NCBI RefSeq assembly: GCF_900107435.1 | Contig: NZ_FNPZ01000001.1 | Location: 530,960 to 594,959, forward strand | Source: Herbiconiux ginsengi | GTDB taxonomy: Bacteria; Actinomycetota; Actinomycetes; Actinomycetales; Microbacteriaceae | Direction of reading: 5' to 3' | DNA length: 64,000 bases | Part shown: piece by piece, positions 33,296 through 54,882 of the stretch | How the letters are laid out: the number at the start of each line of letters is the position of its first letter | How positions within the stretch are numbered: the stretch's first letter is position 1 | Program-made: the position numbers and the translations under genes | Notes under the pieces: generated by a model | What the model was told of the DNA's origin: nothing | Databases searched by the model: none | The model's input: the letters and a program-made list of their open reading frames with translations, nothing else

Positions 33296-33709
33296 TCACA
33301 TGGCGGAGCCGTCGGCGCCGCCGATGTGGGCGACGCCCTGGATCTCGATCAGCGCTTCGGGCTGCCAGAGCCGCGTGACCCCGATGCCGGCCATCGCCGG
33401 ATAGTCCGTGCCGGCCAGTTCGCGCCACTTCGCGCCGATCGCCTTGCCATGGCGCTGGTAGTCCTCGACGTCGGTGAGGTAGATCGTCACGTCGACCAGG
33501 TCGTCGGGAGCACCCCCGGCTGCGCGCAGCGTGGTCAGCAGGTTGGTGAACGCCCGCTCGAACTGCTCCACGATCCCGCCGGGAACGATCGCGCCCGACG
33601 CGTCCATCGCGGTCTGCCCACCGAGGTAGACCGTGGCGCCGGCGACGACGCCGTGCGCGAAGCCGATCGGTGTGGCGAGCTCGGGAGGGTTGACGATTCG
33701 ACGTGACAC
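33296..33709 (-). CDS. Rid-family (RidA-like) protein
   Basis: A 137-residue YjgF/Rid protein: VVAGATVYLGGQTAMDASGA, then QFERAFTNLLTTLRAAGG and DLVDVTIYLTD, ending ALIEIQGVAH. The position of the catalytic Arg of archetypal RidA (PxRSC) is Met106 here, so it belongs to the Rid4-7-like groups, whose imine deaminase activity is not shown. GTG 33709 has an AAAGGA ribosome site. It is divergent from the aryl-CoA operon, whose ring-reduction product is an enamine, which suggests a linked role. Confidence 0.82.
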   Translation of the reverse strand: MSRRIVNPPELATPIGFAHGVVAGATVYLGGQTAMDASGAIVPGGIVEQFERAFTNLLTTLRAAGGAPDDLVDVTIYLTDVEDYQRHGKAIGAKWRELAGTDYPAMAGIGVTRLWQPEALIEIQGVAHIGGADGSAM

Positions 33710-33790
33710 AGCAGTCCTTTCTCCGGGCGGCGATGCCGCACATCCATCTTCCGATAGACCCACATATTTCGTTCTTGTGACGTTCGTTAC

Positions 33791-33805
33791 GAGTATGGCA
33801 TACTC
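33791..33805. promoter_or_regulatory. 15-bp palindrome in the aryl-CoA operon promoter
   Basis: GAGTATG-G-CATACTC is a perfect palindrome with a one-base centre, in the 137-bp gap between the Rid gene and the FAH-family gene. The core GTATGNCATAC resembles sites of FadR-subfamily GntR regulators. It would sit near the start of transcription of the plus-strand operon. Confidence 0.6.
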
Positions 33806-33846
33806 ATGCTCTGAGCACACTGGGCGGCGGAAGGCGGGGCGAGCGG

Positions 33847-34716
33847 ATGCAGCTGGCAGCACTGAGAACGAGCCGCGGCGAGACCGTGGCGGCCGTTTCA
33901 GCGGGTGGCGGCTGGGCGGTCGTCGATGGCGCGACCGACATCTCCTCTCTCGTCTCCCGGGTGAATTGGCGGAGCGACGCCGACGCGGCCCTCGCATCCG
34001 GTCGTCGCATCACGGGAGCGGATGCGCTGTTCGCCAACCCCCTCCCGAATCCGGCCAAAGTCATCTGTTGCGGGCTGAACTACGCCGATCACATCGCCGA
34101 GACCGGCCGCGAGGTGCCCGAGTTCCCCACGCTCTTCGCGAAGTTCGCCGACACGCTGACCGGCCCGGATGCCGACATCACGGTGACGGATTCGACCGCC
34201 GTCGACTGGGAGGCCGAACTCGCCGTGGTGATCGGCTCCCCCCTCCGCCACGGCGATCGCGCGGCGGCGCAGGCCGCGATCCTCGGCTACACGATCGCGA
34301 ACGACATCTCGATGCGGGACTGGCAGAGCCGCACCCTGCAGTGGTTCCAGGGCAAGGCCTTCGACGCCACCACCCCGGTGGGACCGGTGATCGTGACGGC
34401 CGACGAGTTCGACCCGGCCGACGGCGCCGAGATCACCTGTCACATCGGCGACGAACTGATGCAGCGCAGCGACACCGCGCGCCTCGTGTTCGACGCTCCG
34501 GCCCTGGTCTCGTACAGCTCCGGGTTCACCGCGCTCGCACCGGGCGACCTGGTGCTCACGGGAACCCCGGGCGGGGTCGGACTGGGCCGGAAGCCGCGAC
34601 GCTACCTGGCCGACCAGGAGGTCGTGATCACCCGCATCGCGGGGATCGGAGAGCTCCGCAACCGGATCGTCCTGGGCGACCGGATCATCACGAACGAAGA
34701 GAGGCACGAATCATGA
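33847..34716 (+). CDS. fumarylacetoacetate hydrolase-family protein
   Basis: A 289-residue FAH-fold enzyme. The metal site is visible: GLNYADHIAETG, EAELAVVIG (two Glu), ANDISMRDWQ and GTPGGVG. Family members hydrolyse or decarboxylate 2-oxo acids and diketones late in aromatic degradation. It opens an operon (cupin, thioesterase, CoA ligase, aryl-CoA oxygenase), overlapping the cupin gene by 4 bp. It may cleave the ring-opened product; the substrate is inferred from context only. Confidence 0.87.
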   Translation: MQLAALRTSRGETVAAVSAGGGWAVVDGATDISSLVSRVNWRSDADAALASGRRITGADALFANPLPNPAKVICCGLNYADHIAETGREVPEFPTLFAKFADTLTGPDADITVTDSTAVDWEAELAVVIGSPLRHGDRAAAQAAILGYTIANDISMRDWQSRTLQWFQGKAFDATTPVGPVIVTADEFDPADGAEITCHIGDELMQRSDTARLVFDAPALVSYSSGFTALAPGDLVLTGTPGGVGLGRKPRRYLADQEVVITRIAGIGELRNRIVLGDRIITNEERHES

Positions 34717-35162
34717 CCGCTGACGACACCGCGGAGTTGCGCTGGGACAAAGTCCCGCAGGTCACCCGTTCCGGCGAGGAGGACACGCGCACGCTCTCCT
34801 CGGGAGACTGCATCCGCGTCACCGGGGTGGGGCCGCAGCACACCGAGGCCACGAAGATCTGGTTCGGCCAGGTCTCGAACAAGCCCGGCTACCGCTCGCT
34901 CCCCCACCACCACGGCGAAGCGGAGACAGGCGGTTACGTGCTGCGTGGCCGGGGCCGGATCTACTTCGGCGAGGACTACGCGCAGTGGCTCGACATGGCC
35001 GAGGGCGACTGGGTGTTCGTGCCCCCCTTCATGCCGCACGTCGAAGCCAACATGTCGGTCACCGACGAGTTGATCTGGTTGACCACGCGCACCCCCGACA
35101 ACATCGTCGTCGATCTGCCCGAGGTCGACGACAGCGTGCTCGAGGGGTTCCGTCGCGTATGA
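34713..35162 (+). CDS. cupin-domain protein
   Basis: A 149-residue single cupin. Motif 1 is PHHHGEAETGGYVLRGRGRI (His-His-Glu) and motif 2 is GDWVFVPPFMPHVEAN (His), a complete metal site. It overlaps its neighbours by 4 bp on each side. Cupins in aryl-CoA operons can be dioxygenases, isomerases or metabolite-binding proteins; this one cannot be assigned more exactly. Confidence 0.83.
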   Translation: MTADDTAELRWDKVPQVTRSGEEDTRTLSSGDCIRVTGVGPQHTEATKIWFGQVSNKPGYRSLPHHHGEAETGGYVLRGRGRIYFGEDYAQWLDMAEGDWVFVPPFMPHVEANMSVTDELIWLTTRTPDNIVVDLPEVDDSVLEGFRRV

Positions 35163-36028
35163 CCTCATCCGCGGAGGTCTTCCGCCGGGCCATCGCCCTC
35201 ACCGAGGTGCCGGCCGTCGTGTTCGACCGTGCCTTCGAGGCCGAAGCGCAGTACGTTCCCTGGCCGAAGGCCTACGGCGGCGACATGGTGGCACAGTCCG
35301 TGGTCGCCGCGACCGCGACCGTCGCCGCCGACCGCGTGCTCCATTCGCTGCACAACTCCTTTCTGCGGCCCGTCGACGTCGGGGTCGCCGTTCGCTACGA
35401 GGTGGAACTGCTGCGCGACGGACGCGGATACTCCACCCGGCAGGTGCGCGGATTCCAGCACGAGAAGCCGGTGTTCCTCAGCACGGCGTCGTTCCAGGTG
35501 CCGGAGGCCGGCCCCACCCACGCCCCGGCCAGGCCCGAGGTCCCGGCCCCTGAATCGCTGCCGAGCTCGGCGGAGTACCTCGGGGATGCGCAGGATGACG
35601 CGTCGACCTACTGGGCGCACGGGCGCAGCTTCGACCACCGCCATGTTCCCGGCCCCCTCTACCGCCGGCTCGAGGGAGAGCACGCCCCACACCAAGCAGT
35701 GTGGGTGCGCGCCTTCGAGAGCCTGCCCGACGACCCGGCCCTGCACCGGGCCGCGATCGCCTACGTCTGCGACTACACCATCCTGGAGCCCTCGTTGCGG
35801 GTGCTGGGGCTGCACTGGTCGTCGCCGGGGCTGCGCACCGCGAGCCTCGACCATGCGATGTGGTTCCATCGCGATGCCCGCGCCGACGACTGGCTCCTCT
35901 ACGTGCAGGAGTCCGGTGGCGTGCAGAGCGCCCGCGGCCTGAACTTCGGTCGTTTCTTCGACCGAGAGGGCGCCCTGGTCGCGTCCGTCGCCCAGGAGGG
36001 CATGATCCGCGCCCCCGAACCGGCCTGA
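35159..36028 (+). CDS. acyl-CoA thioesterase II (TesB-like)
   Basis: A 289-residue double hot-dog thioesterase: KAYGGDMVAQSVVAATATV and LHSLHNSFLRPVD in the first half, ILEPSLRVLGLHWSS and ASLDHAMWFHRD in the second (catalytic Asp in the DHAMWFH block). It probably releases CoA from a dead-end or terminal acyl-CoA of the pathway and so prevents CoA depletion. It is coupled (ATGA) to the cupin gene. Confidence 0.88.
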   Translation: MTSSAEVFRRAIALTEVPAVVFDRAFEAEAQYVPWPKAYGGDMVAQSVVAATATVAADRVLHSLHNSFLRPVDVGVAVRYEVELLRDGRGYSTRQVRGFQHEKPVFLSTASFQVPEAGPTHAPARPEVPAPESLPSSAEYLGDAQDDASTYWAHGRSFDHRHVPGPLYRRLEGEHAPHQAVWVRAFESLPDDPALHRAAIAYVCDYTILEPSLRVLGLHWSSPGLRTASLDHAMWFHRDARADDWLLYVQESGGVQSARGLNFGRFFDREGALVASVAQEGMIRAPEPA

Positions 36029-36073: not shown

Positions 36074-37729
36074 ATGAGCCTGACGCCCTCTGCCCACCTG
36101 GACACGTTCGCGCGGGACAACCTTCCCGCGCCCGAGAGCTGGCCGGTGATCGAACAGTCATTGCCCGAACTGCAGTACCCCGAGCGGTTGAACGCCGCGG
36201 CAGCGTTGCTCGACGAGACGGTCGAGCGCTTCGGGCCCGATCGGATCGCGCTGCGCTCCGACGACGGAGAGGTCTGGACCTACGGCCGCCTGCAACACCA
36301 GGCGAACAGCATCGCGCAGGTGCTCACCGAAGACTTCGGCATCGTTCCGGGCAATCGCGTGCTGCTGCGCATCCCCAACAACCCCTGGGCGGTGGCGGCC
36401 TGGTTCGCCGTGGTCAAGGCGGGGGCGGTCGTCGTCACGACGATGGTGGCCTGGCGCTCCGCGGAACTCGCGAAGATCACCGCGAAGACGAAGCCGGGGC
36501 TGGTGATCGTCGACCACCGCTTCACGGCCGAACTCGCCGATGCGATCGACGACGCCGTTCCGGTGGTGGTGCTCGGAGGTCCGGATGACGTACTGGTGCG
36601 CTCGGCCGCCGAGAAGTCCGGTGAGTTCACGACGGTGCAGACGGCCGCCGACGACGTCGCGATGCTCGGCCCCACCTCGGGAACCACCGGGGTGCCGAAG
36701 GTCACCATGCACTTCCACCGCGACATCCTGGCGATCGCCGACACCTTCGCCCGCCACGTGCTGAAGCTGCAGCCTGACGACGTCTGTGCCGGATCGCCGC
36801 CGCTGGCGTTCACCTTCGGACTCGGCGGCCTGGTGATCTTCCCCTTCCGTTTCGGCGCATCCTCGGTGCTGCTGGAGCGCGCCGGACCGGTCGCGCTGGC
36901 CGACGCGATCGACGACTTCGGCGTCAGCGTGCTCTACACCGCACCCACCGGCTACCGCGCCATCCTCAAAGAGGGCCGCGCCGACGCCCTCCGACGGCTG
37001 CGGATCGGCGTCTCCGCCGGCGAACACCTCCCCCGGGAGACCTTCGAGGCCGTGGAGGGCGCGAGCGGGCTGCGGCTGATCGACGGCATCGGCGCCACGG
37101 AGATGCTCCACGTGTTCATCTCGGCTGCGGGAGACGACATCCGCCCCGGCTCGACAGGCCGACCGGTGCCCGGATACCGCGCCACCATCCTCGACGACGA
37201 GGGCCGCGAGGCGCCGCGAGGCACCCTCGGCCGCCTCGCCGTCATCGGGCCGACCGGATGCCGCTACCTGGCCGACCCGCGGCAGGCCGACTATGTGCAG
37301 AACGGCTGGAACGTCACGGGCGACAGCTATCGGCAGGACGACGAGGGCTACTTCGTCTACGGCGGCCGGTCGGACAGCATGATCGTGGCGGCCGGGTACA
37401 ACATCGGCGCCCCCGAGGTCGAGGGCGTCATCGACCTGCATCCGGATGTCGCCGAATCGGCGGTCGTCGGGCGCCCCGACCCGGAGAAGGGCGCCATCGT
37501 CAACGCCTTCGTCGTGCTGCGCCCCGGAATCGCCGCCGACGACGCCGCACGGGAGTCGATCCAGGCTCACGTGCGCGCGCGCCTTGCGCCCTACAAAGTG
37601 CCGCGACGCATCGACTTCGTCGACGCACTCCCTCGCAACCCCAGCGGAAAGCTCCAGCACTTCCTTCTCCGAGAACGGATCGCGGCAGAACTCGCCCCGG
37701 CCGGCTCCCCGACCCCCACGGAGGCATGA
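36074..37729 (+). CDS. 2-aminobenzoate (anthranilate)-CoA ligase
   Basis: A 551-residue AMP-forming ligase. Its start (SAHLDTFARDNLPAPESWP, LPELQYPERLN) is characteristic of 2-aminobenzoate- and benzoate-CoA ligases. The P-loop is TSGTTGVPK (about 200-208), the A5 motif is GATEM (about 340), the A8 hinge is YKVPRRIDF and the C-terminal catalytic Lys is in NPSGKL. It would make anthraniloyl-CoA from anthranilate delivered by kynureninase. An AAAGGA ribosome site precedes the ATG. Substrate assignment rests on family resemblance plus the next gene. Confidence 0.87.
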   Translation: MSLTPSAHLDTFARDNLPAPESWPVIEQSLPELQYPERLNAAAALLDETVERFGPDRIALRSDDGEVWTYGRLQHQANSIAQVLTEDFGIVPGNRVLLRIPNNPWAVAAWFAVVKAGAVVVTTMVAWRSAELAKITAKTKPGLVIVDHRFTAELADAIDDAVPVVVLGGPDDVLVRSAAEKSGEFTTVQTAADDVAMLGPTSGTTGVPKVTMHFHRDILAIADTFARHVLKLQPDDVCAGSPPLAFTFGLGGLVIFPFRFGASSVLLERAGPVALADAIDDFGVSVLYTAPTGYRAILKEGRADALRRLRIGVSAGEHLPRETFEAVEGASGLRLIDGIGATEMLHVFISAAGDDIRPGSTGRPVPGYRATILDDEGREAPRGTLGRLAVIGPTGCRYLADPRQADYVQNGWNVTGDSYRQDDEGYFVYGGRSDSMIVAAGYNIGAPEVEGVIDLHPDVAESAVVGRPDPEKGAIVNAFVVLRPGIAADDAARESIQAHVRARLAPYKVPRRIDFVDALPRNPSGKLQHFLLRERIAAELAPAGSPTPTEA

Positions 37730-37733
37730 CGCC

Positions 37734-40160
37734 ATGAAGATCGCGATCATCGGCGCAGGACCCGGCGGACTGTATTTCGCCGCCCTCATGAAACAACTCG
37801 ACCCCGCCCACGAGGTGACGGTGTGGGAGCGCAACGCCCCCGACGACACCTTCGGTTTCGGCGTGGTGTTCAGCGACGAGACCCTCGGGGGCATCGAGAA
37901 CGCCGACCGGGTGGTGGCGGCCGAGATGCGTGACCGCTTCGCCCGCTGGACCGACATCGACATCACCCTCGACGGGGTGACCCACACCGTCGGCGGCCAG
38001 GGCTTCGCGGCGATGAGCCGCAAGGAGCTCCTGCTCGTGCTCCAGCAGCGGGCGCGCGACCTGGGCGTGCTGGTGCACTACCGCACCGAGGCGCCCGACC
38101 CCGAGCTGCTGGCCGCCGACCACGACCTCGTGATCGCCTCCGACGGCCTGAACTCGCGGGTGCGCAGCCGCTACGCCGACAGCTTCGGGCCGACCCTCGA
38201 CGTGCGCCGGTCGAAGTACATGTGGCTGGGACTCGACCGCGCCTTCGAGGCGTTCACCTTCATCGTGAAGCACACGCCCTACGGCGTCATGCAGATCCAC
38301 GGCTACCCCTACTCGGCCACGGAGAGCACCTTCATCGTGGAGATGCACGAGGACGTCTGGCGGCGCGCCGGCTTCGACGCGAGCGAGACCGAGGTCTTCC
38401 CGCCCGGCGTCAGCGACGAGCGATCGATCGCCCTCATCACCAAGTTGTTCGCCGATGAGCTCGGCGGCTCGCGGGTGCTCAGCAACAACTCCAAGTGGCT
38501 GAACTTCTCCACCGTGCGCAACGAGCACTGGCGGCACCAGAACGTGGTGCTGCTCGGCGACGCTGCGCACACCGCCCATTTCTCGATCGGATCGGGCACG
38601 AAGCTCGCCATGGAAGACGCCCTGGCCCTCGCGGCGTGTCTGCACGAGCATCCGGAGCTCGACTCCGCGCTCACGGCCTACGAGGCCGAGCGCAAGCCCG
38701 TCGTGCTCTCGACCCAGCGGGCCGCGCAGGCGTCACTGGAGTGGTTCGAGAACATCGGCCAGTACGGCGACCAGGAGCCGCTGCAGTTCGCCTTCAACCT
38801 GCTGACGCGCAGCCGGCGGATCACCTTCGACAACCTCGCTCTGCGCGATCCCGGATTCGCGGGCACGGTGTTGCAGGACTTCGCGGGAACGGAGGAGGAA
38901 TCCGTCACCGCCCCCGCGATGTTCCAGCCGCACCGGATCGGCGGCCTCACCCTGAAGAACCGCGTGGTGGTCTCGGCGATGGACATGTACTCCGCGGTCG
39001 ACGGCGTCGCGGGCGACTTCCACCTCGTGCACCTCGGCAGCAAGGCGGCGGGCGGCGCCGGACTCGTGATGACCGAGATGATCGCGGTCTCGGCGGAGGG
39101 CCGGATCACCCTCGGGTGCAGCGGTCTCTACGAGGACGAGCACGCGGCATCCTGGAAGCGGATCGTCGACTTCGTGCACGGCACGACCACGGCGAAGATC
39201 GGCGCTCAGATCGGGCACTCCGGCCGCAAGGGCTCGACCAGGCTGATGTGGGAGGGCATCGACGACCCGCTGCCCGAGGGCGGGTGGGAGACGGTCGGCC
39301 CGTCGGCCATCCCTTACGGACCCTCGAGCCCCGAGCCACGCGCACTCACCCGCGCCGGCATGATCGAACTGCGCGAGCAGTTCGTGTCGGCCGCCCGGCG
39401 CGCTGCGGATGCGGGATTCGACCTGCTCGAGGTGCACGCGGCCCACGGCTACCTGCTCTCCTCGTTCCTCTCCCCGCTCGCCAACCACCGCGACGACGAG
39501 TACGGCGGAACCCTGGAGAACCGGTTGCGCTACCCGCTCGAGGTCTTCGACGCGGTGCGGGAGGTGTGGCCGGCCGATCGCCCGCTGCTGGTGCGCATCT
39601 CGGCCCATGACTGGGTGCCCGGCGGCAACACCGATGACGACGCCGTCGAGATCGCCGCAGCGTTCATCGCGCACGGCGCCGACGGCATCGACGTGTCGTC
39701 GGGCCAGGTGGCCAAGCAGGAGCGCCCGGCCTACGGCCGCAGCTACCAGACGCCGTTCGCCGACAAGATCCGCAACCGGGTCGGCCGTGCCGCCCAGGTG
39801 ACGGTGATCGCGGTCGGAGCGGTGTCGTCGTACGACGACGTCAACTCCCTGCTGCTGGCGGGTCGAGCCGACCTCGTGGCGCTCGGTCGCACCCACCTCT
39901 GGGATCCGCAGTGGACGCTGCACGCCGCCGCAGACCAGGGCTACCGCGGCCCGGGGGCCGAATGGATCGCGCCCTTCCGTGCCGGATCGCGCAAGCCGCC
40001 GGCGGCCCGGACGGATGCGGTCAGGCCGCGCCTCGAACTGCTCGCCGCAGCCGTCTCACCGGTCGAGGACGGCGTGCACCGACGCTGGGTCGACGGCGCC
40101 GTGCTCGACGCCTCGTCGCGGAACGACGCCGCGTCGCCGGTGGCGGTGGGCGCTCGCTGA
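37734..40160 (+). CDS. anthraniloyl-CoA monooxygenase/reductase (two-domain flavoprotein)
   Basis: An 808-residue fusion. Residues 1-385 are a class A FAD monooxygenase (GAGPGGLYFA at 7-16; GDAAHTAHFSIGSGTKLAME near 275) like salicylyl-CoA 5-hydroxylase. Residues about 395-760 are an old-yellow-enzyme FMN reductase (FQPHRIGGLTLKNRVV, HSGRKG, EVHAAHGYLLSSFLSP, VSSGQVA). This architecture is that of 2-aminobenzoyl-CoA monooxygenase/reductase, which hydroxylates and then reduces the ring of anthraniloyl-CoA without cleaving it. A 50-residue tail is non-conserved. It ends the operon in a hairpin shared with the convergent fgd gene. Confidence 0.92.
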   Translation: MKIAIIGAGPGGLYFAALMKQLDPAHEVTVWERNAPDDTFGFGVVFSDETLGGIENADRVVAAEMRDRFARWTDIDITLDGVTHTVGGQGFAAMSRKELLLVLQQRARDLGVLVHYRTEAPDPELLAADHDLVIASDGLNSRVRSRYADSFGPTLDVRRSKYMWLGLDRAFEAFTFIVKHTPYGVMQIHGYPYSATESTFIVEMHEDVWRRAGFDASETEVFPPGVSDERSIALITKLFADELGGSRVLSNNSKWLNFSTVRNEHWRHQNVVLLGDAAHTAHFSIGSGTKLAMEDALALAACLHEHPELDSALTAYEAERKPVVLSTQRAAQASLEWFENIGQYGDQEPLQFAFNLLTRSRRITFDNLALRDPGFAGTVLQDFAGTEEESVTAPAMFQPHRIGGLTLKNRVVVSAMDMYSAVDGVAGDFHLVHLGSKAAGGAGLVMTEMIAVSAEGRITLGCSGLYEDEHAASWKRIVDFVHGTTTAKIGAQIGHSGRKGSTRLMWEGIDDPLPEGGWETVGPSAIPYGPSSPEPRALTRAGMIELREQFVSAARRAADAGFDLLEVHAAHGYLLSSFLSPLANHRDDEYGGTLENRLRYPLEVFDAVREVWPADRPLLVRISAHDWVPGGNTDDDAVEIAAAFIAHGADGIDVSSGQVAKQERPAYGRSYQTPFADKIRNRVGRAAQVTVIAVGAVSSYDDVNSLLLAGRADLVALGRTHLWDPQWTLHAAADQGYRGPGAEWIAPFRAGSRKPPAARTDAVRPRLELLAAAVSPVEDGVHRRWVDGAVLDASSRNDAASPVAVGAR

Positions 40161-40217
40161 ACGCGGCCGGCGGGCGGGGCGTTCGATGGGCGCCACCGCC
40201 CGCCGGGCGCGTTCAGC
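40156..40217. terminator. hairpin spanning both convergent stop codons
   Basis: Arms 40156-40177 and 40196-40217 (starting GCTGAACGCG) pair over 22 bp with one mismatch. The TGA of the anthraniloyl-CoA monooxygenase gene lies in the left arm and the stop of the fgd gene in the right arm. It can terminate both operons. Confidence 0.8.
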
Positions 40218-41230: not shown

Positions 41231-41998
41231 TCAGTGCCGGCCGAGCGCGGCGAGCACCGCAGGCCAGGCTCCGCTCGTCGGATCGATCAACTCGTAGTGG
41301 CCCGCATCCGGCAGCTCCTGGAGCGTGATGCGCGCATCGCGATCTGCGTAGCCGCGACTGTACGACGCGGGCACCTCGTCGTCGAGTGAGCCGTGAACGA
41401 GCGTGAGGGCGACATCCGCGGGCACGGGCAGCTGCATCGGGTCGGCGCCGGCGAGGATCGAGGAGAACTCCGCCTGATCGGCCCCGCCCAGGAGCTCGCT
41501 CACGGCGCCCACGCTCAACCGCTCCCGATGCGCCGCGGCGAGGTCGAGCACGCCCGCGAGCGCGACCACCGCATCGACGGTCACGGCCCTCGTCTGACTC
41601 CAGAGCGCGAGGTGGCCGCCGGCGGAGTGACCGACGAGCGTGATGCGGTCGGCCGCGGCGTCGCCGAAGCGCCGGCGCACGAGCTCGGGCACGGTCTCCA
41701 GCAGGAGCAGCACGTCATCGCCGGTGCCCGGCCATCCGCCACCGGCATCGCCGACGCGCCGGTACTCCGGCAGGGCCACCGTGTACCCCTCCTCGCTGAG
41801 GGCGACGGCCATCGGGTAGAGGTGGGTGCGATCCCAGCGGCGGCGCCAGAAGCCGCCGTGCAGGAGCACGACGAGGCCTCGATGCATCCGCCCCCGCGCG
41901 GCGAACAGGTCGACGAGGTGCAACTCGTCGGGGCCGTAGCGATCCGTGACATCCGGAACGCTTCCGTCACCCGGCGCGGGCCCGGACTCAGTCGTCAC
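41231..41998 (-). CDS. alpha/beta hydrolase, probable kynurenine formamidase
   Basis: A 255-residue serine hydrolase with the HGGFW oxyanion motif (47-51), nucleophile Ser125 in GHSAGG, Asp in GSLDDEVP and His in DAGHYEL, a complete triad. The HGG[FY]W motif is typical of the AFMID/BNA7-type N-formylkynurenine formamidases. Placed after tryptophan dioxygenase and kynureninase, it supplies the missing hydrolytic step from N-formylkynurenine to kynurenine. It overlaps the flavin reductase gene by 11 bp. A general esterase is the alternative. Confidence 0.83.
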
Positions 41999-47966: not shown

Positions 47967-48767
47967 TCAGCTTCCGATGGGCTCCCCGCCGGTCACCCAC
48001 ATGGTCTGCCCGGTGATCGATCCCGAACCGGGGCCGACGAGCATCGACACCACCTGGGCCACCTCGAGCGGCGAGGGGAAGACGCCGAGTGCGGTGCGCT
48101 CGAGCAGGCGGTCGGACAGCTCCTGCCGGGTGGCGTCCAACTCGACCTGCTCGGCCGGATCGACCACACGGCCCGGCGCCACCACATTCGCGGTGATGCC
48201 GTTGCGCCCCTCTTCGAGTGCGAGGTAGCGGGTGAGCGTGGTCGCGGCCGCCTTGGCGGCACCGTAGATTCCGAAGCCAGGGTGAGGCCTCGACATGAGG
48301 GCACCCGAGAGGTACACCACGCGGCCCCAGCCCTCGTCGCGCATGCCGGGAACGACGCGGGCGACGAGCGCCGCGTGCAGCTTCACGCCGGCGAACTCGG
48401 CGTCGATGATGCCGGGTGTCGCGTCGGCCACCCGGACCGGGCCCTGCCCCGCGTGCACCGTGTTGACGAGAACGGTCACGGGACCGACGAGCGACTCCAC
48501 CTCGGCGAAAGCGCCCTCGAGCGCGCCCGCGTCTCCGAGGTCGGCCTGAACGACCGGATGCTCGCCGGGCAGCGCTCCAGCGAGCGCCTCGGCCCCGCTC
48601 CGGTCGCCCCGGCAGTGCACCACGACGGTGGCTCCGAGAGCCGCGAGCTCGGCCGCGACCGCGCGGCCGATCGTGCCCGTGGCGCCGGCGACGAACGCCA
48701 CCCGGCCGGCCAGCGCACCGCCGCCCGCGACGGCGCCGAGCGCATCCGGCGTGGTCGCCATCGTCAC
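47967..48767 (-). CDS. short-chain dehydrogenase/reductase
   Basis: A classical SDR of 266 residues: cofactor motif GATGTIGRAVA (about 29-39), LVNTVHAGQG (NNAG variant), catalytic YGAAKAAATTL (YxxxK) and VVAPGRV. It probably oxidises or reduces an alcohol/ketone of the pathway; IacE-like SDRs appear in auxin degradation. GTG 48767 overlaps the ABC ATPase stop by 4 bp; ATG 48761 is two codons downstream and equally possible. Confidence 0.87.
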   Translation of the reverse strand: MTMATTPDALGAVAGGGALAGRVAFVAGATGTIGRAVAAELAALGATVVVHCRGDRSGAEALAGALPGEHPVVQADLGDAGALEGAFAEVESLVGPVTVLVNTVHAGQGPVRVADATPGIIDAEFAGVKLHAALVARVVPGMRDEGWGRVVYLSGALMSRPHPGFGIYGAAKAAATTLTRYLALEEGRNGITANVVAPGRVVDPAEQVELDATRQELSDRLLERTALGVFPSPLEVAQVVSMLVGPGSGSITGQTMWVTGGEPIGS

Positions 48768-49555
48768 CGGATCACCGCGGAGAGGAATTCACGCGTACGG
48801 GCGTTCTGGGGCGAGTCGAGCACCTGCGCCGGCTCGCCCTGCTCCACGAGGCGCCCGTCGGCCATGAACACCACGCGATCGGCGACTTCGCGGGCGAAGC
48901 CCATCTCGTGGGTCACCACGACGATGGTCATGTTGGCCGTGCGTACGAGGTCTTTCATCACCTCGAGCACCTCGCCCACCAGCTCGGGGTCGAGGGCGCT
49001 GGTGGGTTCGTCGAAGAGCAGCACCGTGGGGCGCATGGCGACGGCCCGGGCGATGGCGACGCGTTGCTGCTGCCCGCCCGACAACTGCGACGGGTAGAAG
49101 TCGGCCTTCGCCGCCAGCCCCACGCGTTCGAGCAGCGTGCGAGCGCGCGAGATCGCCTCGGCCTTCGGAACCCGCAGGATCTTGATCGGCGCGAAGGCGA
49201 TGTTCTCCAGCGCGGTCATGTGCGGAAAGAGGTTGAACTGCTGGAAGACCATGCCCACCCGCACCCGCTGGTGGCACGCCTCGTGCTCCTTCAGCTCGTG
49301 CAGACGCCCGCGTTTCTCGCGGTAGCCGATGAGATCGTCGCCCACCCGGATGCGGCCGGTGTTGATCTCCTCGAGGTGGTTGATGCAGCGCAGCAGGGTG
49401 CTCTTGCCCGAGCCGGACGGCCCGATCAGGCACACGGTCTCGCCTTCGGCGATCTGCAGATCGATGTCGAACAACACCTGGTTCTGCCCGAACCATTTGT
49501 CGACGCCCTCCACCGACACCATCGGGCGCACCAGGGTCTGAGTCTCTGCGGTCAT
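48764..49555 (-). CDS. polar amino acid ABC transporter, ATP-binding protein
   Basis: A 263-residue ATPase of the GlnQ/HisP class: Walker A GPSGSGKST (45-53), Q-loop VFQQFNLFPHMT, signature QLSGGQQQRVAIARA, Walker B LLFDEPTSALDPE and the switch His in VTHEMGF. It pairs with the permease (4-bp overlap) and the binding protein at 51719 to import an amino acid, most simply tryptophan, kynurenine or a related aryl amino acid given the operon. Confidence 0.93.
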   Translation of the reverse strand: MTAETQTLVRPMVSVEGVDKWFGQNQVLFDIDLQIAEGETVCLIGPSGSGKSTLLRCINHLEEINTGRIRVGDDLIGYREKRGRLHELKEHEACHQRVRVGMVFQQFNLFPHMTALENIAFAPIKILRVPKAEAISRARTLLERVGLAAKADFYPSQLSGGQQQRVAIARAVAMRPTVLLFDEPTSALDPELVGEVLEVMKDLVRTANMTIVVVTHEMGFAREVADRVVFMADGRLVEQGEPAQVLDSPQNARTREFLSAVIR

Positions 49556-50454
49556 CGTTCGGCCGTCCTCTTCTCGATGAAGTACTGCACGATCGTCAAC
49601 ACCGTGATCACCAGCAGGTACCAGATGGTCGCGACGATCAGCAGCTCGATCGTGCGGAAGTTCGACCCGGAGATGCCGAGCGCCACGGTGAGCAGGTCGC
49701 CACCGGCGATCACAGAGACGATGGCCGAGGCCTTCAGCATGCTGATGAACTCGTTGCCCATGGGAGGAAGCAGAACCCTCAGGGCCTGCGGGAGCACGAC
49801 GTAACGGAGCGTGCGGGCCCCGTTCAGGCCGAGCGCCTTCGCGGCCTCGTGCTGCCCGCGCCCGATCGAGAGCAGCCCGCCTCGCACGATCTCGGCCATG
49901 TAGCCCGATCCGGCCAGCGAGAGCCCGATCACCGATGCCAGGAAGGGCGTCATCACCTCTTTCACCGGCACCGACCAGAAGGTGATGTCGGTGAACGGGA
50001 TGCCGATCGCGAAGTTCTGGAAGAACAGGCCGAGGTTGCCCACGAAGATCAGCAGCACGATCAGTGGCACGCCGCGGAAGATGAAGACGTAGCCGGCCGC
50101 GAATCCGCTCACGATCCGGCTGGGCGAGATGCGCATCACGGCGATCACCACGGCGAGCACGAGCGCGAACACCATCGACACGGCGGTGATCTCGAGCGTC
50201 GTGCCGAGCCCCTTGAGGATGGCCGGGCTGAAGAGGAACTCCCCCACGATCGGCCATTGGATGTTCGGGTTGGTCCACAGGCCCAGCACGACGCTGATCA
50301 GCACGATCACCGACACCACGGCGAGCACACCGCGGCCCCAGTGCCGCACGGGCACCACGTTGAGCTTGTTCTCCCTCGTGAGCAACGACCTGGTCTTCAG
50401 GTTCACGCGCCCGCTGGTCGATCCGGTCTCGGTCACCACCGTTCCCTCCGTCAT
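49552..50454 (-). CDS. polar amino acid ABC transporter, permease
   Basis: A 300-residue permease of the HisM/GlnP class with about five to six membrane helices, a FRGVPLIVLLIF motif and the cytoplasmic EAA loop (GGLLSIGRGQHEAAKALGLN). An N-terminal soluble extension of about 40 residues precedes the first helix. It overlaps both the monooxygenase gene and the ATPase gene by 4 bp. Confidence 0.92.
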   Translation of the reverse strand: MTEGTVVTETGSTSGRVNLKTRSLLTRENKLNVVPVRHWGRGVLAVVSVIVLISVVLGLWTNPNIQWPIVGEFLFSPAILKGLGTTLEITAVSMVFALVLAVVIAVMRISPSRIVSGFAAGYVFIFRGVPLIVLLIFVGNLGLFFQNFAIGIPFTDITFWSVPVKEVMTPFLASVIGLSLAGSGYMAEIVRGGLLSIGRGQHEAAKALGLNGARTLRYVVLPQALRVLLPPMGNEFISMLKASAIVSVIAGGDLLTVALGISGSNFRTIELLIVATIWYLLVITVLTIVQYFIEKRTAER

Positions 50455-51638
50455 CGGTCTTCGTCCTCGATCAGGGTCTTGCCGACCTCGACCCAGCGAC
50501 TGCGCCAGGTGGACGCGTGAGCGGCCACGGCCGTGAGGTCGCGGATGAGCACCTCGAACGGCCCCGCGGTGTAGACCACCTGGGCGCCGAGCAGCTCCGC
50601 GCACAGGTCGACGATCCGGCGAGCCAGATCGGCGGCGACCGGGGCGTCGCCCCGGGCCATGATCGAGTCGCTCGGCAGCTCGCCGGGGGTGAAGATCGAC
50701 TCGTCGATGCGCTGCACACCCTGATACACCACGGCGCGGGCAGCCCGCAGATAGCTCTCCGCCTCCCCCAGCAACCCGAGCTTGCGGGTGTCGATCGGCG
50801 CCGTCCCCGCTTTCGCGCGAAGGCCCGCCGTGGCGAGGTCGACCGCGTGCTGCGCGATGCCCACGGCGATGCCGGCCGTGCTGTAGAACGGCAGGTCGAC
50901 CAGCTTGTTCAGGGGCTCGGCATCCGGATCCGGGTCGAAATAGCGGTCGAAGGAGTGCCCCTCCGGCACGAACACGTCGGTGACGTCGTAGCCGTTGCTC
51001 CCCGAGCCGCGGAGGCCGATGGTGTCCCAGTCGTTCTGGATCTCGACCTGATCGGCCGGCAGCCAGACGCCCAGCACGAGGGGGGTGCCGTCGTCTTTGA
51101 GCACCTTCTCGCCGGCGTCGAACACTTCGACGCCGCCCACGATGTGATGGGCCGAGCGGATGCCGCTGCCGAACTTCCATCGCCCGGTGACGCGGTAGCC
51201 ACCCTCGACGACGTCTGCGCGGCCTCGCGGGTGGAACGAGCCGCAGGTGGGCAGGTCGAGCTCGGGATAGAGCTCGGCGAAGGCCTCATCGCCCAGCCGC
51301 CCGGCGTAGAACCCCGTCGCCGCGAGGATGGCCGCGTTCCACGCGATGCTCGCGTCGCGGGTGGCGATGAGCTCGGCGATGCGGGTCTGCGCGGTGAGCG
51401 GCATCTCCGGGCCGCCGCGGTGGGCGGCGAAGCCCACCCGGAAGACTCCGGCGGCGCGGAGGGCCTCGCGTGCGCGCTCCGTCATGAAGTGCTGTCGGGA
51501 GGTGGCCTCGGCCTCTTCGCCGACGATGGGGAGGATGGCCTCGACGTTCGCCACGATGGCGGCGGCGCTCGTCGGATCCTGCAGGGCGGAGAGCAGCCCT
51601 CGGTCGGTGTCCGTGAGGGTGGGACTGTCCAGTGTCAT
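50451..51638 (-). CDS. acyl-CoA-dehydrogenase-fold flavin monooxygenase, paralogue 2
   Basis: A 395-residue paralogue of the protein at 46641: AILPIVGEEA, AAHRGGPEMPL, FYAGRLGDEAFAELYPELD, CGSFHPRGRADVVEGGYRVT and WDTIGLRGSGSNGYDVTDVF. As a group D flavin monooxygenase it would need FMNH2/FADH2 from the operon's flavin reductase. It lies between the binding-protein and permease genes of the importer, an unusual position that links it tightly to uptake. GAAGGAG ribosome site. Confidence 0.83.
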   Translation of the reverse strand: MTLDSPTLTDTDRGLLSALQDPTSAAAIVANVEAILPIVGEEAEATSRQHFMTERAREALRAAGVFRVGFAAHRGGPEMPLTAQTRIAELIATRDASIAWNAAILAATGFYAGRLGDEAFAELYPELDLPTCGSFHPRGRADVVEGGYRVTGRWKFGSGIRSAHHIVGGVEVFDAGEKVLKDDGTPLVLGVWLPADQVEIQNDWDTIGLRGSGSNGYDVTDVFVPEGHSFDRYFDPDPDAEPLNKLVDLPFYSTAGIAVGIAQHAVDLATAGLRAKAGTAPIDTRKLGLLGEAESYLRAARAVVYQGVQRIDESIFTPGELPSDSIMARGDAPVAADLARRIVDLCAELLGAQVVYTAGPFEVLIRDLTAVAAHASTWRSRWVEVGKTLIEDEDR

Positions 51639-51718: not shown

Positions 51719-52687
51719 TCAGGACGCGGCGACCTCACCGGGAGCCGTGCCGGTCGTCGGGTTGATGACCAGCTCGTCCACCGTGATCGCCATCGGCGCC
51801 ACGTCGTATTCCTGGTAGACGGCGTCGTAGCTGCCATCCTCGATCAGCACCTTGAGCGCGCCGGCGATCGCCTTGGAGAGACCCGGGTTGGCCTTGGCGA
51901 CGGCGATACCGCCGAACTCCGCCGGGATCTCGGACTCGGGCAGCACGATGGAGGTGAAGGTGGCGGAGTCCTTGTCGACGATCGCCTGCAGGCTCGCGGC
52001 GGTGTCGAACCAGGCGTCGACGGTTCCCGCCCGGAGTGCCTGCACAGCGGCGGTCGCGCCCTGGTACTCGGCCATCTGGATCGGGTCGCTCGCGCACTCG
52101 GCGTCGCTGATCGCCTTGACCTTCTCGGACTGGTTGGAACCGACCGGCACCGCGATCGTCAGGCCGCACGCGTCGGCGAGCTTCTCGACGTCCTTCGGGT
52201 TGCCCGCCGGCAGGAGCAGCCCCTCCTCGGTCTTCTGGAACGGGACGAGGTCGACGATGGACTGCTCGCGCTCGGCGGTGATGGTGACCTGACCGAACAG
52301 GGCGTCGACCGTTCCTGCCTGCACACCCGGAAGCTGGGCCGGCCACTGCAGGTTCGACCACTCCGCCTTCACGCCGAGGATGGGTGCGATCTTGGCCGCG
52401 AGGTCGGGTGCGATACCGATGGGCGTGGTCGCGTCGGCGGCGTCGACACCGATCACGGGAGGAGTCTCCCAGAGAGCGCCGAAGGAGATGACCCCGGAAT
52501 CCTGGATCGACTGGGGCAGGAGATCGTGGAGCTCCTGATTGAAGACGTCGTCGGCCGGAGCCGTCTCAGCCGTGGCTGCGGTGTCGGAGCTGCTGCATCC
52601 GGCGAGAGCGAGGACTCCGATCACGGCGACGGCCGGAATCGTCGCCCGAACGAGGTGGCGAGTGCGGGAAGGGGAGGAAGAACGCAT
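51719..52687 (-). CDS. amino acid ABC transporter substrate-binding lipoprotein
   Basis: A 322-residue periplasmic-binding-type lipoprotein: signal peptide with lipobox LALAGC (Cys31), then a type II binding fold (SGVISFGALWETPPVIGVDA, APDLAAKIAPILGV, VDALFGQVTITAEREQ, GTVDAWFDTAASLQAI). LspA would process it. It is the first gene of the 15-gene operon. Ligand unknown; an aryl amino acid is inferred. Confidence 0.92.
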   Translation of the reverse strand: MRSSSPSRTRHLVRATIPAVAVIGVLALAGCSSSDTAATAETAPADDVFNQELHDLLPQSIQDSGVISFGALWETPPVIGVDAADATTPIGIAPDLAAKIAPILGVKAEWSNLQWPAQLPGVQAGTVDALFGQVTITAEREQSIVDLVPFQKTEEGLLLPAGNPKDVEKLADACGLTIAVPVGSNQSEKVKAISDAECASDPIQMAEYQGATAAVQALRAGTVDAWFDTAASLQAIVDKDSATFTSIVLPESEIPAEFGGIAVAKANPGLSKAIAGALKVLIEDGSYDAVYQEYDVAPMAITVDELVINPTTGTAPGEVAAS

Positions 52688-52922
52688 GCTGGGTCCTATC
52701 GATCAGTCGGGATGATGCGGGGTGCAGGCCCCGTGGTGCCAACCTGCTAAGACCATTCCTACTCATCGCATGTGTCCGCGCCGTCATTGGCGTGTTACGG
52801 TCATGTTTCATTATGCTGACTCGCGTCACATTAGTGTGAGATGGCCTTGTGGAGAGAATAGCGCGCCCACCCGGCGAGTGCAATCACCAGAAACGTCACT
52901 CATCCAGGAGGGGCGTTGCGCG
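52688..52922 (-). promoter_or_regulatory. promoter region of the tryptophan operon
   Basis: This 235-bp gap upstream of the binding-protein gene holds the perfect palindrome TCACA-TTAG-TGTGA (52826-52839). On the minus strand a CATAAT -10-like hexamer (about 52811-52816) lies 18 bp after TCACAC, so the palindrome overlaps the -35. It is locally AT-rich. A regulator, possibly the upstream PaaX, could act here. Confidence 0.5.
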
Positions 52923-53915
52923 TCAGACCGCCGCCCTCACCGACTCGCTCCAGACGACGGTGCAGCCCGCCCCGCGGTAGGCGGATTCGATCCGGCGACG
53001 ATCGCCCTGTTCCGCGAAAGCGCCCGCGTCGACGACCGCCACGGAGTACTCGTGACCGTAGAGCTCGGCGAACTCGGCGACGTCCTCGACCCGGAGCGAT
53101 TCCTCGCCGACCCGAGGGAAGAGCCGCGCCAGCCGTCGCTCCGGCTCGAGTCCGGCCGCCCGCAAGGCCTCCTCGACGGCTTCCGTCCCGGCGTCCGAGA
53201 TCGGACCCAGCACCGCGATTCCGAGCCGGCGACCCTGCGGTGAGAAGTGCGCCGCCAGAGCGCGACCGAGTTCCTCGTCGCCGGACGCGACGGCCGGCAG
53301 GGGCCACACGCCCGTCTCGCACCATTGGAGCATCTCGGGCCACGGCCCGAATCCGGCGGCCTGATTCAGGTGTCCGCCGCCGGGCACCTCGACCGTGGCC
53401 AGGCCGAGCGGCAGGCCGTAGCGGGTCTCGGCGCCCTCGGGGAGATAGGGGTCGCCGATCGAGGAGAGCAGGAGAGCGGGTTCGACGGTTGCGGCCGCCA
53501 CCGCCTCGGCCGTCACGGTGACGGGAAGGCTCTCGGAGACGTCTCCCCCGTGCATCCCGGTCGCCGGCGGCGCGACGAGAACGGCCCGCCTGGCCAGGGG
53601 AGCGGGCGGACGGCCGTCGGCGAGCGCCGCATCGCGGGCACGATCGCCGCACATGCGCAGCCACAACAGCACGCTGAGGCCGTGCGCCACCACCGTCACC
53701 CGCTCGCGCCCCCGCAGGGCGCGCAGCGCGACGTCCGACCAGTCGGCGTAACGGGGATGCTCGGGGTCGGGCAGCGTGAGGTAGTCGACGCTCGCCCCCC
53801 GCTCCACCAGCCTCTCGGCCAGCCACCCCTGCCAGTGCCCCGGCTGACGGCGGTGCTGCCAGCCGTCGAGGAGGAGGAAATGCTCATCGGCGAGCGCGGG
53901 AGCGGTCGAGGTCAT
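52923..53915 (-). CDS. RBBP9/YdeN-like alpha/beta hydrolase, nucleophile absent
   Basis: A 330-residue protein. The start LLLDGWQHRRQPGHWQGWLA matches the RBBP9/YdeN serine hydrolases, and GGGHLNQAAGFGPWPEM near 180 carries the family His. At the nucleophile elbow the sequence is VVAHGLS, with Gly79 where GHSxG would have Ser, so hydrolysis by the usual triad is doubtful. An additional C-terminal domain of about 110 residues is not recognised. It lies 43 bp downstream of paaX and may be co-transcribed. Confidence 0.7.
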   Translation of the reverse strand: MTSTAPALADEHFLLLDGWQHRRQPGHWQGWLAERLVERGASVDYLTLPDPEHPRYADWSDVALRALRGRERVTVVAHGLSVLLWLRMCGDRARDAALADGRPPAPLARRAVLVAPPATGMHGGDVSESLPVTVTAEAVAAATVEPALLLSSIGDPYLPEGAETRYGLPLGLATVEVPGGGHLNQAAGFGPWPEMLQWCETGVWPLPAVASGDEELGRALAAHFSPQGRRLGIAVLGPISDAGTEAVEEALRAAGLEPERRLARLFPRVGEESLRVEDVAEFAELYGHEYSVAVVDAGAFAEQGDRRRIESAYRGAGCTVVWSESVRAAV

Positions 53916-53958
53916 CAGTCATCCTTCACGGTAGGGAATCGCGGGGAGCGCGAGGTGA

Positions 53959-54882
53959 TCAGTCGGTCACGGTCAGGGCCAGCGACGCTTCGCCGGCGGG
54001 ATCGTCGATCGCGGTGCCGGTGACCTCGCGCACGAACTCGGTGGCGAGGCCGCTGAAGCGGCCCCGAAGGCGGAAGACCAGGGCATTGCTGGCGTCGCCG
54101 GGCCAGTCGTCGGGGAGCAACGAGTCGGGAAGACCGGGATCGATGTAGGGGATGATGCGCCAGGTGTCGACGCTCCGGATGTAGATCGCGAACGCGTCGC
54201 GCGGGGCCACCTCGGCGGAGTCGGCCATCAATCCCTCGGCCGAGTAGTCGCTCAGGAACTCCTCGTGCTGGGCGCGGATGGCGTCGAGGTCCCACCACGA
54301 GGCCACGGCGTCTCGGAGATCGCCGGCGACACGAGGGCGTTCCGTGATGAACACCGTCGCGTGCTCTCTGACGCCCAGATCCTGGAGGATCTCGTCGACC
54401 TCGTCGACGAGATAGGCGGGGCAGATCCACAGTGCGGGCGAGACCGTGCCGCACCCGATCCAGTGCAGCCGGCGCCGCAGCTGATGGCGCAGATGCCGGT
54501 TCTCCTCGGGGATCGAGAACGACACGGCACACCATTTGCTCTCCGGGCCCATGTTGCGTGGATGGTAGATGCGGCGGTCGCCCCGGGCGAGCATGGGCGC
54601 GGCGTCGGGAACGAGCGCGTATCCCGCCACCTTGCCGCGGGTCTCGGGAACCACGAGCGACTTCTTCTTCACCCGCGCCAGAGCGGTGCGCGTGCGCGGG
54701 GCGGGAACGTCCAGAGCCTCCATGAGGGAGACCAGGTCGGCCACCGCGATCCACCCGCCGAGCTGTCGGAGGTAGATGCCGAGCACGGTGCGCAGCAACG
54801 ACGTGATGCTCCCGGGCCGGGAGTCCATGTCGTCGAGGATCTCACCCATCACCGCCCCCGTCCGGCGTCCGGCGACGCCCAC
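53959..54882 (-). CDS. PaaX-family transcriptional repressor
   Basis: A 307-residue PaaX-like protein: N-terminal winged helix (TSLLRTVLGIYLRQLGGWIA, RTALARVKKKSLV), middle part VSFSIPEENRHLRHQLRRRL and GCGTVSPALWICP, and a C-terminal ligand domain. E. coli PaaX is released from DNA by phenylacetyl-CoA, so this protein may sense an aryl-CoA of the pathway. GTG 54882 is chosen over ATG 54849 because TACGGT (54889-54894) lies exactly 6 bp upstream. Confidence 0.87.
   Translation of the reverse strand: MGVAGRRTGAVMGEILDDMDSRPGSITSLLRTVLGIYLRQLGGWIAVADLVSLMEALDVPAPRTRTALARVKKKSLVVPETRGKVAGYALVPDAAPMLARGDRRIYHPRNMGPESKWCAVSFSIPEENRHLRHQLRRRLHWIGCGTVSPALWICPAYLVDEVDEILQDLGVREHATVFITERPRVAGDLRDAVASWWDLDAIRAQHEEFLSDYSAEGLMADSAEVAPRDAFAIYIRSVDTWRIIPYIDPGLPDSLLPDDWPGDASNALVFRLRGRFSGLATEFVREVTGTAIDDPAGEASLALTVTD

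Follow-up and report, generated by a model that had tools for sequence, protein, structure and literature searches.

Degradation of anthranilate through its coenzyme A (CoA) thioester is known from Azoarcus evansii, in which a CoA ligase and a two-domain monooxygenase/reductase are reported to be followed by a beta-oxidation ending (PMC4539516; this and the other papers are cited here from the available part of their text). A linear plasmid of Arthrobacter Rue61a encodes an anthranilate-CoA ligase, whose activity was demonstrated in Escherichia coli extracts, and a putative anthraniloyl-CoA monooxygenase/reductase (ACMR), and two regulators of this strain are PaaX-related (PMC3534580). Liquid chromatography-mass spectrometry of anthranilate-grown Rue61a cells detected anthraniloyl-CoA and, tentatively, CoA esters of C7H7NO3 and C7H8O4, a mutant without the plasmid still grows on anthranilate via chromosomal paralogues, and the fate of the dearomatised ring is left open in that report (PMC3534580). 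Here we analyse a 64-kb stretch of the 4.85-Mb genome of Herbiconiux ginsengi (contig NZ_FNPZ01000001.1, positions 530960-594959; hereafter the window), which encodes the ligase and the two-domain enzyme as Azoarcus does, together with enzymes of tryptophan breakdown, and which carries genes for a FAH-superfamily hydrolase, a cupin and a TesB-type thioesterase instead of the beta-oxidation ending. With moderate confidence we read this locus as a tryptophan catabolic island in which the FAH-cupin-TesB ending replaces the Azoarcus-type beta-oxidation half. An earlier note on this DNA had inferred a complete CoA-dependent route in an actinobacterium, much of which would be new; given the Rue61a ligase and putative ACMR, novelty of the CoA route itself is not supported. 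The route is already known in actinobacteria, and it is the ending and an additional gene module that look new.

Genes were called from reading frames with codon-position GC (guanine-cytosine) bias combined with hidden Markov model scans (NCBIfam/TIGRFAM and Pfam); the calls of the ABC permease and ATPase come from the frames and the annotation of relatives. Two convergent gene sets meet between 40160 and 40213, as the earlier note had described, and every gene named there was recovered in its place. RidA, TesB and the flavin reductase had been overlooked. The RidA gene, a minus-strand gene transcribed away from FAH, stands outside the convergent pair, and the earlier start coordinate of the island, 33296, is its 3' end. 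The plus strand reads FAH, cupin, TesB, CoA ligase and ACMR. Seven adjacent gene pairs overlap by 4 bp, cupin/TesB being one of them. The island is real and coherent. The genes that carry the proposed trunk of the pathway are as follows.

33296..33709, minus strand: RidA-family protein (PF01042 match, reading frame, alignment)
33847..34716, plus strand: FAH-superfamily hydrolase, putative acylpyruvate (succinylpyruvate) hydrolase (PF01557, conserved residues)
34713..35162, plus strand: single-domain cupin of 149 residues with an HxHxxxE...H metal site, putative ring-opening dioxygenase (Cupin_2, Cupin_1)
35159..36028, plus strand: TesB-type acyl-CoA thioesterase II (PF02551, PF13622 and PF20789 over cut-off)
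36074..37729, plus strand: 2-aminobenzoate (anthranilate)-CoA ligase, benzoate-CoA-ligase family (TIGR02262, below cut-off; identity to Rue61a)
37734..40160, plus strand: ACMR, an FAD (flavin adenine dinucleotide) monooxygenase joined to an OYE domain (NF006101)
41231..41998, minus strand: alpha/beta hydrolase, probable kynurenine formamidase (BD-FAE, HGGFW and GHSAG motifs)
42494..43762, minus strand: kynureninase (TIGR01814, YKYLN motif)
43764..44630, minus strand: tryptophan 2,3-dioxygenase, TDO (TIGR03036)

The steps assigned to TDO, the hydrolase, kynureninase and the ligase are well supported by family membership. TDO passed the cut-off of TIGR03036 (395.6 bits against 390.7) and kynureninase that of TIGR01814 (272.3 against 246.4); with the hydrolase, which bears HGGFW and GHSAG, they would form a complete set for the kynurenine-anthranilate branch. 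The CoA ligase scored 335.5 bits with TIGR02262, short of the cut-off of 375.25, and is 66% identical to the ligase adjoining ACMR on the Rue61a plasmid pAL1, which by its position is taken to be ARUE_113p00220, the enzyme of published activity. ACMR exceeded the cut-off of NF006101 (1196.3 bits against 1078), and both of its active sites, represented by the FAD motif and by H568/H571/Y573, are retained in no fewer than 97% of the 47 rows of the alignment. Gathering scores were also exceeded by the matches to SBP_bac_3, ABM, Bac_luciferase, FAA_hydrolase, Cupin_2 and Cupin_1. A model of the anthranilate dioxygenase large subunit had no match in the genome at E <= 0.001. The NCBIfam name of NF006101, 'salicylyl-CoA 5-hydroxylase/oxidoreductase', could be taken literally and the island assigned to salicylate degradation. 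We regard that assignment as very improbable, for ACMR stands with TDO and kynureninase both in this island and in Rhodococcus, it is 72% identical to the Rue61a plasmid ACMR that lies beside the anthranilate-CoA ligase, and the classical gentisate dioxygenase model had no match in the genome at E <= 0.001.

The gene neighbourhood of ACMR provides the principal evidence on the ending. In an order-level sample of 396 genomes, the ACMR query gave 30 matches at E <= 1e-180, its own included, and the other 29 loci were fetched and tallied for genes within 10 kb of ACMR at 35% identity with half of the query covered. RidA and PaaX were each present in 27 of these loci, FAH, cupin, TesB and the benzoate-type ligase in 25 each, and a 4HBT thioesterase in 19. 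The FAH, cupin and TesB genes were complete in 25 of the 29, none of which had the beta-oxidation set. The Ruegeria-type SDR, enoyl-CoA hydratase and acyl-CoA dehydrogenase each occurred in two loci; the set was found in L051 and L053, which belong to the same family (f5) and both lack FAH, cupin and TesB. In a family-level sample, ACMR was over the cut-off in seven of 199 genomes, and a tally at 38% identity of seven loci in six genomes besides the window gave RidA in seven, TesB in seven, cupin in six, FAH in five, the benzoate-type ligase in four, PaaX in two and the beta-oxidation set in none. ACMR had matches in 97 plasmid records, 25 of which were listed, and five proteobacterial loci were fetched from among the 97. 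By annotation, all five have ACMR with an SDR, an enoyl-CoA hydratase, an acyl-CoA dehydrogenase and a ligase, and four have RidA. The actinobacterial-type FAH, cupin and TesB had no match in these five loci at the cut-offs of the order tally; the automatic tally scored four of the loci, the Phyllobacterium ACMR falling under the 50% identity filter, and for the fifth the match list shows none either. Other cupins lie nearby in Ruegeria and Paroceanicella with no clear similarity (E 0.08 and 0.005), and a FAH gene is annotated in a neighbouring sugar-type cluster in Paracoccus.

From these distributions we infer that the two endings replace each other, as a module swap, behind a common ligase-ACMR-Rid core. 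Because RidA occurs on both sides of the swap, the Rid protein is suggested to act before the fork. A search by title and start of abstract found no publication on the FAH-cupin-TesB ending among the matches listed, with subscription literature mostly outside its coverage. Alternatively, an Azoarcus-type beta-oxidation ending might be encoded elsewhere in the genome, with FAH, cupin and TesB detoxifying side products or recovering CoA. Actinobacteria are rich in beta-oxidation genes, and this ending has the advantage of being the published one for Azoarcus (PMC4539516). We nevertheless consider it quite unlikely, given how regularly FAH, cupin and TesB accompany ACMR in the order sample and that the beta-oxidation set appears there only in their absence. 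In the window, to which the search was confined, the rest of the genome not being searched, proteobacterial queries for enoyl-CoA hydratase, acyl-CoA dehydrogenase and 3-hydroxyacyl-CoA dehydrogenase found no match at E <= 1e-6, and two SDR matches were found at 30-31% identity.

Two further observations concern the cassette itself. A genome of 2.2 Mb carries two ACMR cassettes within 25 kb of each other's outer ends (L009-L011; G083:C6, 53-78 kb). A PaaK-type ligase stands in place of the benzoate-type ligase beside ACMR at L018 (4415-5749), L003 (11465-12790), L005 (4554-5879), L035, L041 and L054, the last three being among the four order loci without the benzoate-type enzyme; in the family sample it is present in Herbiconiux moechotypicola and in Microbacteriaceae bacterium 3FA27C10, and one lies at the end of L017. 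This exchange of ligases is a non-orthologous replacement.

In the sequence of reactions that we propose, the importer would bring in tryptophan or an amino acid related to it, and TDO, the HGGxW hydrolase and kynureninase would yield formate, alanine and anthranilate. The ligase would convert anthranilate to anthraniloyl-CoA, ACMR would produce a dearomatised CoA ester, and the Rid protein would hydrolyse the enamine to 2,5-dioxocyclohexanecarboxyl-CoA and ammonia. TesB would remove CoA to give the free acid, before or after the cupin, with O2, cuts the beta-keto acid or thioester between C1 and C2 to 2,4-dioxoheptanedioate (succinylpyruvate), an acylpyruvate that FAH would split into succinate and pyruvate (C7 to C4 and C3). 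Dke1-like cupin cleavage offers an analogy for the C1-C2 opening. This proposal accounts for every carbon, as succinate and pyruvate, and the C7H8O4 ester of Rue61a fits it because C7H8O4 is the formula of 2,5-dioxocyclohexanecarboxylate. We put forward tentatively, as a possibility somewhat short of probable, the combined reading that the cupin opens the dearomatised 2,5-dioxocyclohexane ring to succinylpyruvate for FAH to split, an undescribed oxygenolytic route with which actinobacteria would complete anthranilate degradation, and that an F420-linked monooxygenase/TIGR04076 module, so far found only with TDO and kynureninase, feeds an imported amino acid into the tryptophan trunk. If the oxygenolytic route is true, two oxygenases act on one ring, one before and one after dearomatisation.

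Residue conservation was compared among the orthologues. In FAH, N78-x3-H82-x2-E85, E122, E124, D153 and K170 are invariant in all 23 aligned sequences (23 of 29 orthologues found), so the protein has the His-Glu pair and the Glu/Glu/Asp site typical of acylpyruvate hydrolases of the superfamily; we take the former to be catalytic and the latter to be the metal site. Its relatives in the PDB include L-2,4-diketo-3-deoxyrhamnonate hydrolase (232.6 bits), maleylpyruvate hydrolase (140.5) and the acylpyruvase FAHD1 (132.5), and the best match, 6j57/6j5x (311 bits), has only a generic name; we take it to be the Corynebacterium glutamicum fumarylpyruvate hydrolase, which a literature search did not confirm. 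The cupin residues H65, H67, E71 and H109 are invariant in 30 of 30 aligned sequences (30 of 36 orthologues found). TesB scored 205.3 bits with TIGR00189, under the cut-off of 292.85, and its three Pfam domains are above theirs.

The same four genes could also be employed in a gentisate-like ending, in which ACMR or its N-terminal domain forms 5-hydroxyanthraniloyl-CoA, TesB releases 5-hydroxyanthranilate, the cupin cleaves it in the manner of gentisate dioxygenase, the Rid protein deaminates the ring-opened enamine and FAH yields fumarate or maleate and pyruvate. The C7H7NO3 ester of Rue61a is presumably hydroxyanthraniloyl-CoA, which ACMR makes under limiting NADH (PMC3534580), 5-hydroxyanthranilate and gentisate are intermediates described for Nocardia opaca (PMC4539516), and the FAH relatives listed above include maleylpyruvate hydrolase. 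With the ring still aromatic the OYE domain would be idle, yet H568/H571/Y573 are kept; moreover, the cupin has a single domain, and the genome lacks a match to the gentisate dioxygenase model. We therefore judge a gentisate-like ending to be unlikely and retain the oxygenolytic opening by the cupin as our working proposal.

The remaining minus-strand genes surround those for TDO, the hydrolase and kynureninase. From 54.9 kb downwards the order is PaaX, Ser_hydrolase, solute-binding protein, MoxA, permease, ATPase, SDR, MoxB, TIGR04076 proteins a and b, LLM, ABM, TDO, kynureninase, flavin reductase, HGGxW hydrolase and F420-dependent glucose-6-phosphate dehydrogenase (FGD).

40213..41220, minus strand: FGD (TIGR03554)
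41988..42491, minus strand: flavin reductase, presumably serving the two-component monooxygenases (PF01613, frame and start)
44669..44962, minus strand: ABM-domain protein (PF03992)
45000..46010, minus strand: LLM-class oxidoreductase, F420/MER-like (PF00296; NCBIfam F420 families all below cut-off)
46007..46333, minus strand: TIGR04076 protein b (39.5 bits, cut-off 33)
46330..46644, minus strand: TIGR04076 protein a (38.6 bits, cut-off 33)
46641..47921, minus strand: class-D flavin monooxygenase MoxB, acyl-CoA-dehydrogenase fold (family and PDB matches)
47967..48767, minus strand: SDR oxidoreductase (family matches)
48764..49555, minus strand: polar-amino-acid ABC importer ATPase (reading frame; relatives annotated amino acid ABC transporter ATP-binding)
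49552..50454, minus strand: ABC importer permease (reading frame, relatives)
50451..51638, minus strand: class-D flavin monooxygenase MoxA, 46% identical to MoxB (family and PDB matches)
51719..52687, minus strand: amino-acid solute-binding protein (PF00497, SBP_bac_3)
52923..53915, minus strand: Ser_hydrolase domain protein (PF06821)

MoxA and MoxB belong to a small clade, which allowed the linkage of the two operons to be followed across genomes. The clade was found in three of the 199 family genomes (E <= 1e-60) and, with the MoxA query, in three of the 396 order genomes (E <= 1e-50), the genome of the window being included in both counts. A MoxB query against a class-level sample of 394 genomes returned, besides its own genome, only two relatives at 35-36% identity. 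A contig-wide scan, sensitive to none but close relatives, placed the clade at four loci. Among plasmids it occurs on two of Rhodococcus, at 50% identity, and the next plasmid match is at 34%. The closest named relative of the minus-strand cassette is that of H. moechotypicola, with MoxB at 87% identity. Eight clade genomes were examined, namely those of the window, H. moechotypicola (L016), Microbacteriaceae bacterium 3FA27C10 (L019), Microbacterium sp. 67-17 (L017), M. album (L018), Rhodococcus qingshengii N9T-4 (L020), G301 (L035/L058) and G328 (L041/L059); Rhodococcus NJ-530 (L076) is a ninth case with the gene order of L020. In all eight, TDO, kynureninase, PaaX, the importer genes, SDR, LLM, ABM and two TIGR04076 genes are clustered. 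The flavin reductase is present in seven, alanine dehydrogenase in two and, in the stretches covered, FGD in five. The HGGxW hydrolase is found in five; N9T-4 has another alpha/beta hydrolase, and L035 (6743-7717) and L041 (about 6479-7330) have an amidohydrolase between kynureninase and TDO, at the usual place of the HGGxW hydrolase; this amidohydrolase is a candidate for an alternative kynurenine formamidase. All eight genomes encode ACMR, six of them within the island itself, which argues that both operons serve one route from tryptophan to anthraniloyl-CoA. Since gene orders differ among the genomes, the link between the operons is not mere common descent of one block, and a gene set that recurs in several genera in different orders is, on this comparative evidence, beyond chance. 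The co-occurrence check proposed in the earlier note thus came out in its favour, as did its central proposal of a route through anthranilate and anthraniloyl-CoA to a dearomatised CoA ester that involves both operons.

That note had also left a series of enzymes without a step. FAH and the cupin can now be placed, since together with TesB and RidA they are usual companions of ACMR, and the LLM-type gene at 40.2-41.2 kb, previously unrecognised, is FGD, a supplier of F420H2 (TIGR03554, 619.3 bits against a cut-off of 420); the flavin monooxygenases, SDR, the second LLM, ABM and the TIGR04076 pair are still without one. The genome also encodes F420 biosynthesis, as indicated by a CofH domain (TIGR03551, 527.3 bits, cut-off 374.1), and because FGD and F420 biosynthesis are both present, the LLM protein at 45000-46010 is suggested to use F420H2. 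MoxA and MoxB are class-D two-component monooxygenases whose best PDB matches are HsaA and Rv3094c, with XiaF lower; in the stretches covered, five of the eight clade genomes have a single enzyme, of MoxB type in L017, L018 and L020 and of MoxA type in L035 and L041. On plasmids, matches to LLM at E <= 1e-30 and to ABM at E <= 1e-4 were confined to the two Rhodococcus islands. A model of the TIGR04076 protein, built from seven sequences (pLDDT confidence score 75.5), had no fold match in the PDB at E <= 0.001 and no meaningful sequence match (best E 0.091). Eleven plasmid records contain TIGR04076 relatives; four neighbourhoods beyond the Rhodococcus islands were inspected. The gene lies near LLM enzymes and a permease for amino acids in Rhodococcus YL-1 and near aldo/keto reductases in Alloyangia, Phyllobacterium and Thioclava, and these four revealed no substrate. 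On plasmid pYLL1 of Rhodococcus sp. YL-1 (L072, 8923-11274), TIGR04076 adjoins two LLM genes, an APC permease, an FAD oxidoreductase and an amidase, and this locus is a second context that pairs TIGR04076 with LLM. The monooxygenase neighbourhoods of Providencia and Rhodococcus LW-XY12 looked unrelated to the island.

Our preferred reading of this second module is a peripheral route that, with F420H2 from FGD, would most likely convert an imported tryptophan- or kynurenine-like amino acid into the trunk. Its main rival is that the unassigned minus-strand enzymes form an indole or indole-acetate branch to anthranilate. The iif/iac routes do use the same enzyme types, a class-D monooxygenase, a flavin reductase and an SDR, exemplified by the acyl-CoA-dehydrogenase-like IacA, the SDR IacE, the flavin reductase IacG and IifA, a putative cofactor-free oxygenase (PMC7225977, PMC12538310). 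The set in the window differs from them in being accompanied by an importer, TDO and kynureninase; the importer is one for amino acids, which is not an indole entry, and TDO and kynureninase, found in eight of eight loci, are unneeded by an indole route. XiaF, which we take to be an indole hydroxylase, is distantly related (61.9 bits to MoxB and 53.7 to MoxA) and outscored for both proteins by HsaA relatives, and the best match of MoxA is Rv3094c. An indole branch is accordingly a minor possibility in our estimation, and the module would be better understood as the peripheral amino-acid route.

Several observations count against the pathway as we propose it. Among the 29 order loci, L050 and L052 (a 4-kb contig) have neither ending, and the swap test (Fisher p 0.015) draws on few beta-oxidation cases in the order, with relatedness left uncorrected. 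Of the seven loci of the family sample, two lack FAH within 10 kb of ACMR and one lacks the cupin there. The PDB relatives of the cupin are weak (oxalate decarboxylase, E 3.1e-5), no ring-cleaving enzyme is named among its 19 listed matches up to E 0.1, and its AlphaFold2 model, built from 26 sequences, failed with a pLDDT of 45.6. When the catalytic position of the Rid protein was set by alignment to the goat protein, Met occupied the place of the archetypal catalytic Arg in 39 of 43 rows (Leu in two, Thr in one, Ser in one, Arg in none); that residue is, we assume, Arg105 of E. coli RidA. Because Met stands there, deaminase activity is not assured. Finally, the flavin reductase is not in the H. 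moechotypicola cassette (L016), and ACMR and the minus-strand cassette lie on different contigs in two of the eight clade genomes, both draft assemblies from the genus of the window. As an observation of its own, Met for Arg is common to most ACMR-linked Rid proteins of actinobacteria and proteobacteria, which may constitute a distinct Rid subfamily.

A shared regulator for the two operons was considered from the PaaX gene and from operator-like sites.

33778..33789, plus strand: palindrome TGACGTTCGTTA resembling an operator, in the divergent promoter of RidA and FAH (motif scan)
52817..52828, plus strand: operator-like site TGACTCGCGTCA upstream of the binding-protein gene (motif scan, suggestive only)
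53959..54882, minus strand: PaaX-family regulator (PF07848/PF20803/PF08223 over cut-offs)
54909..54920, plus strand: operator-like site upstream of paaX (motif scan, suggestive only)

PaaX scored 141.8 bits with TIGR02277, below the equivalog cut-off of 264.55, with all three PaaX Pfam domains above theirs. Of 24 RidA-FAH intergenic regions, 15 contain the motif TGACGNNCGYNA and nine, including Rhodococcus L020, lack it; 200 mononucleotide shuffles gave a mean of 0.04 regions and at most one, the 24 regions being related and not independent. In the window, the motif has two exact sites against 0.79 expected, one of them at 33778, which is not significant alone, and nine one-mismatch sites against 5.1 expected, a small excess that four of 100 shuffles reached. 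Near matches precede the binding-protein gene (52817) and paaX (54909). PaaX probably represses both operons, and the evidence that one PaaX serves both through a shared predicted operator is suggestive only.

The swap in gene content points to four candidate genes for the step left open in Rue61a. In actinobacteria, tryptophan, kynurenine, anthranilate and anthranilate-yielding quinolones would all drain into this pathway, and the second module is a defined gene set in which to find a new F420-linked catabolic reaction.

Comparison with the annotated relatives places the island among known systems. On pAL1 of Rue61a (ARUE_113p00220/00230), PaaX, RidA, FAH, cupin, TesB, ligase, ACMR and PaaX are annotated as one block, and the window has the full cassette of this type, with RidA, FAH, cupin, TesB, ligase and ACMR. 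Rue61a differs from the window in that its anthranilate derives from quinaldine and that TDO, kynureninase and the monooxygenase/TIGR04076 module are absent from the stretch fetched. The same set is found in Tsukamurella tyrosinosolvens and in Rhodococcus erythropolis BG43, on whose plasmid pRLCBG43 (L022) the anthranilate-CoA cassette adjoins aqdC1, which encodes a quinolone dioxygenase; this position suggests that the cassette may serve to mineralise quinolone signals. On the Ruegeria pomeroyi DSS-3 megaplasmid, TDO and an HGGYW hydrolase lie beside ACMR, ligase and RidA, so that, as far as gene content tells, the link from tryptophan to ACMR exists in a proteobacterium too; there, unlike in the window, the regulator is of MarR type, the ending consists of SDR, enoyl-CoA hydratase and acyl-CoA dehydrogenase, and the stretch has no kynureninase. 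The islands of R. qingshengii N9T-4 (pN9T4-1) and of the NJ-530 plasmid, known here from annotated records, share with the window the importer, a MoxB-type monooxygenase, two TIGR04076 genes, LLM, ABM, SDR, flavin reductase, ACMR, ligase, RidA, FAH, cupin, TesB, TDO and kynureninase, with two PaaX genes, and N9T-4 also has FGD and alanine dehydrogenase. They differ from it in having one monooxygenase, no Ser_hydrolase match in the stretch, an extra 4HBT thioesterase and another gene order. In both strains (L020, NZ_AP026692.1, 533-556 kb; L076, NZ_CP034156.1) the whole island lies on a linear plasmid typed as mobilizable, about 35 kb or less from the record end, and in L020 it is adjoined by the alanine dehydrogenase gene and an Lrp regulator.

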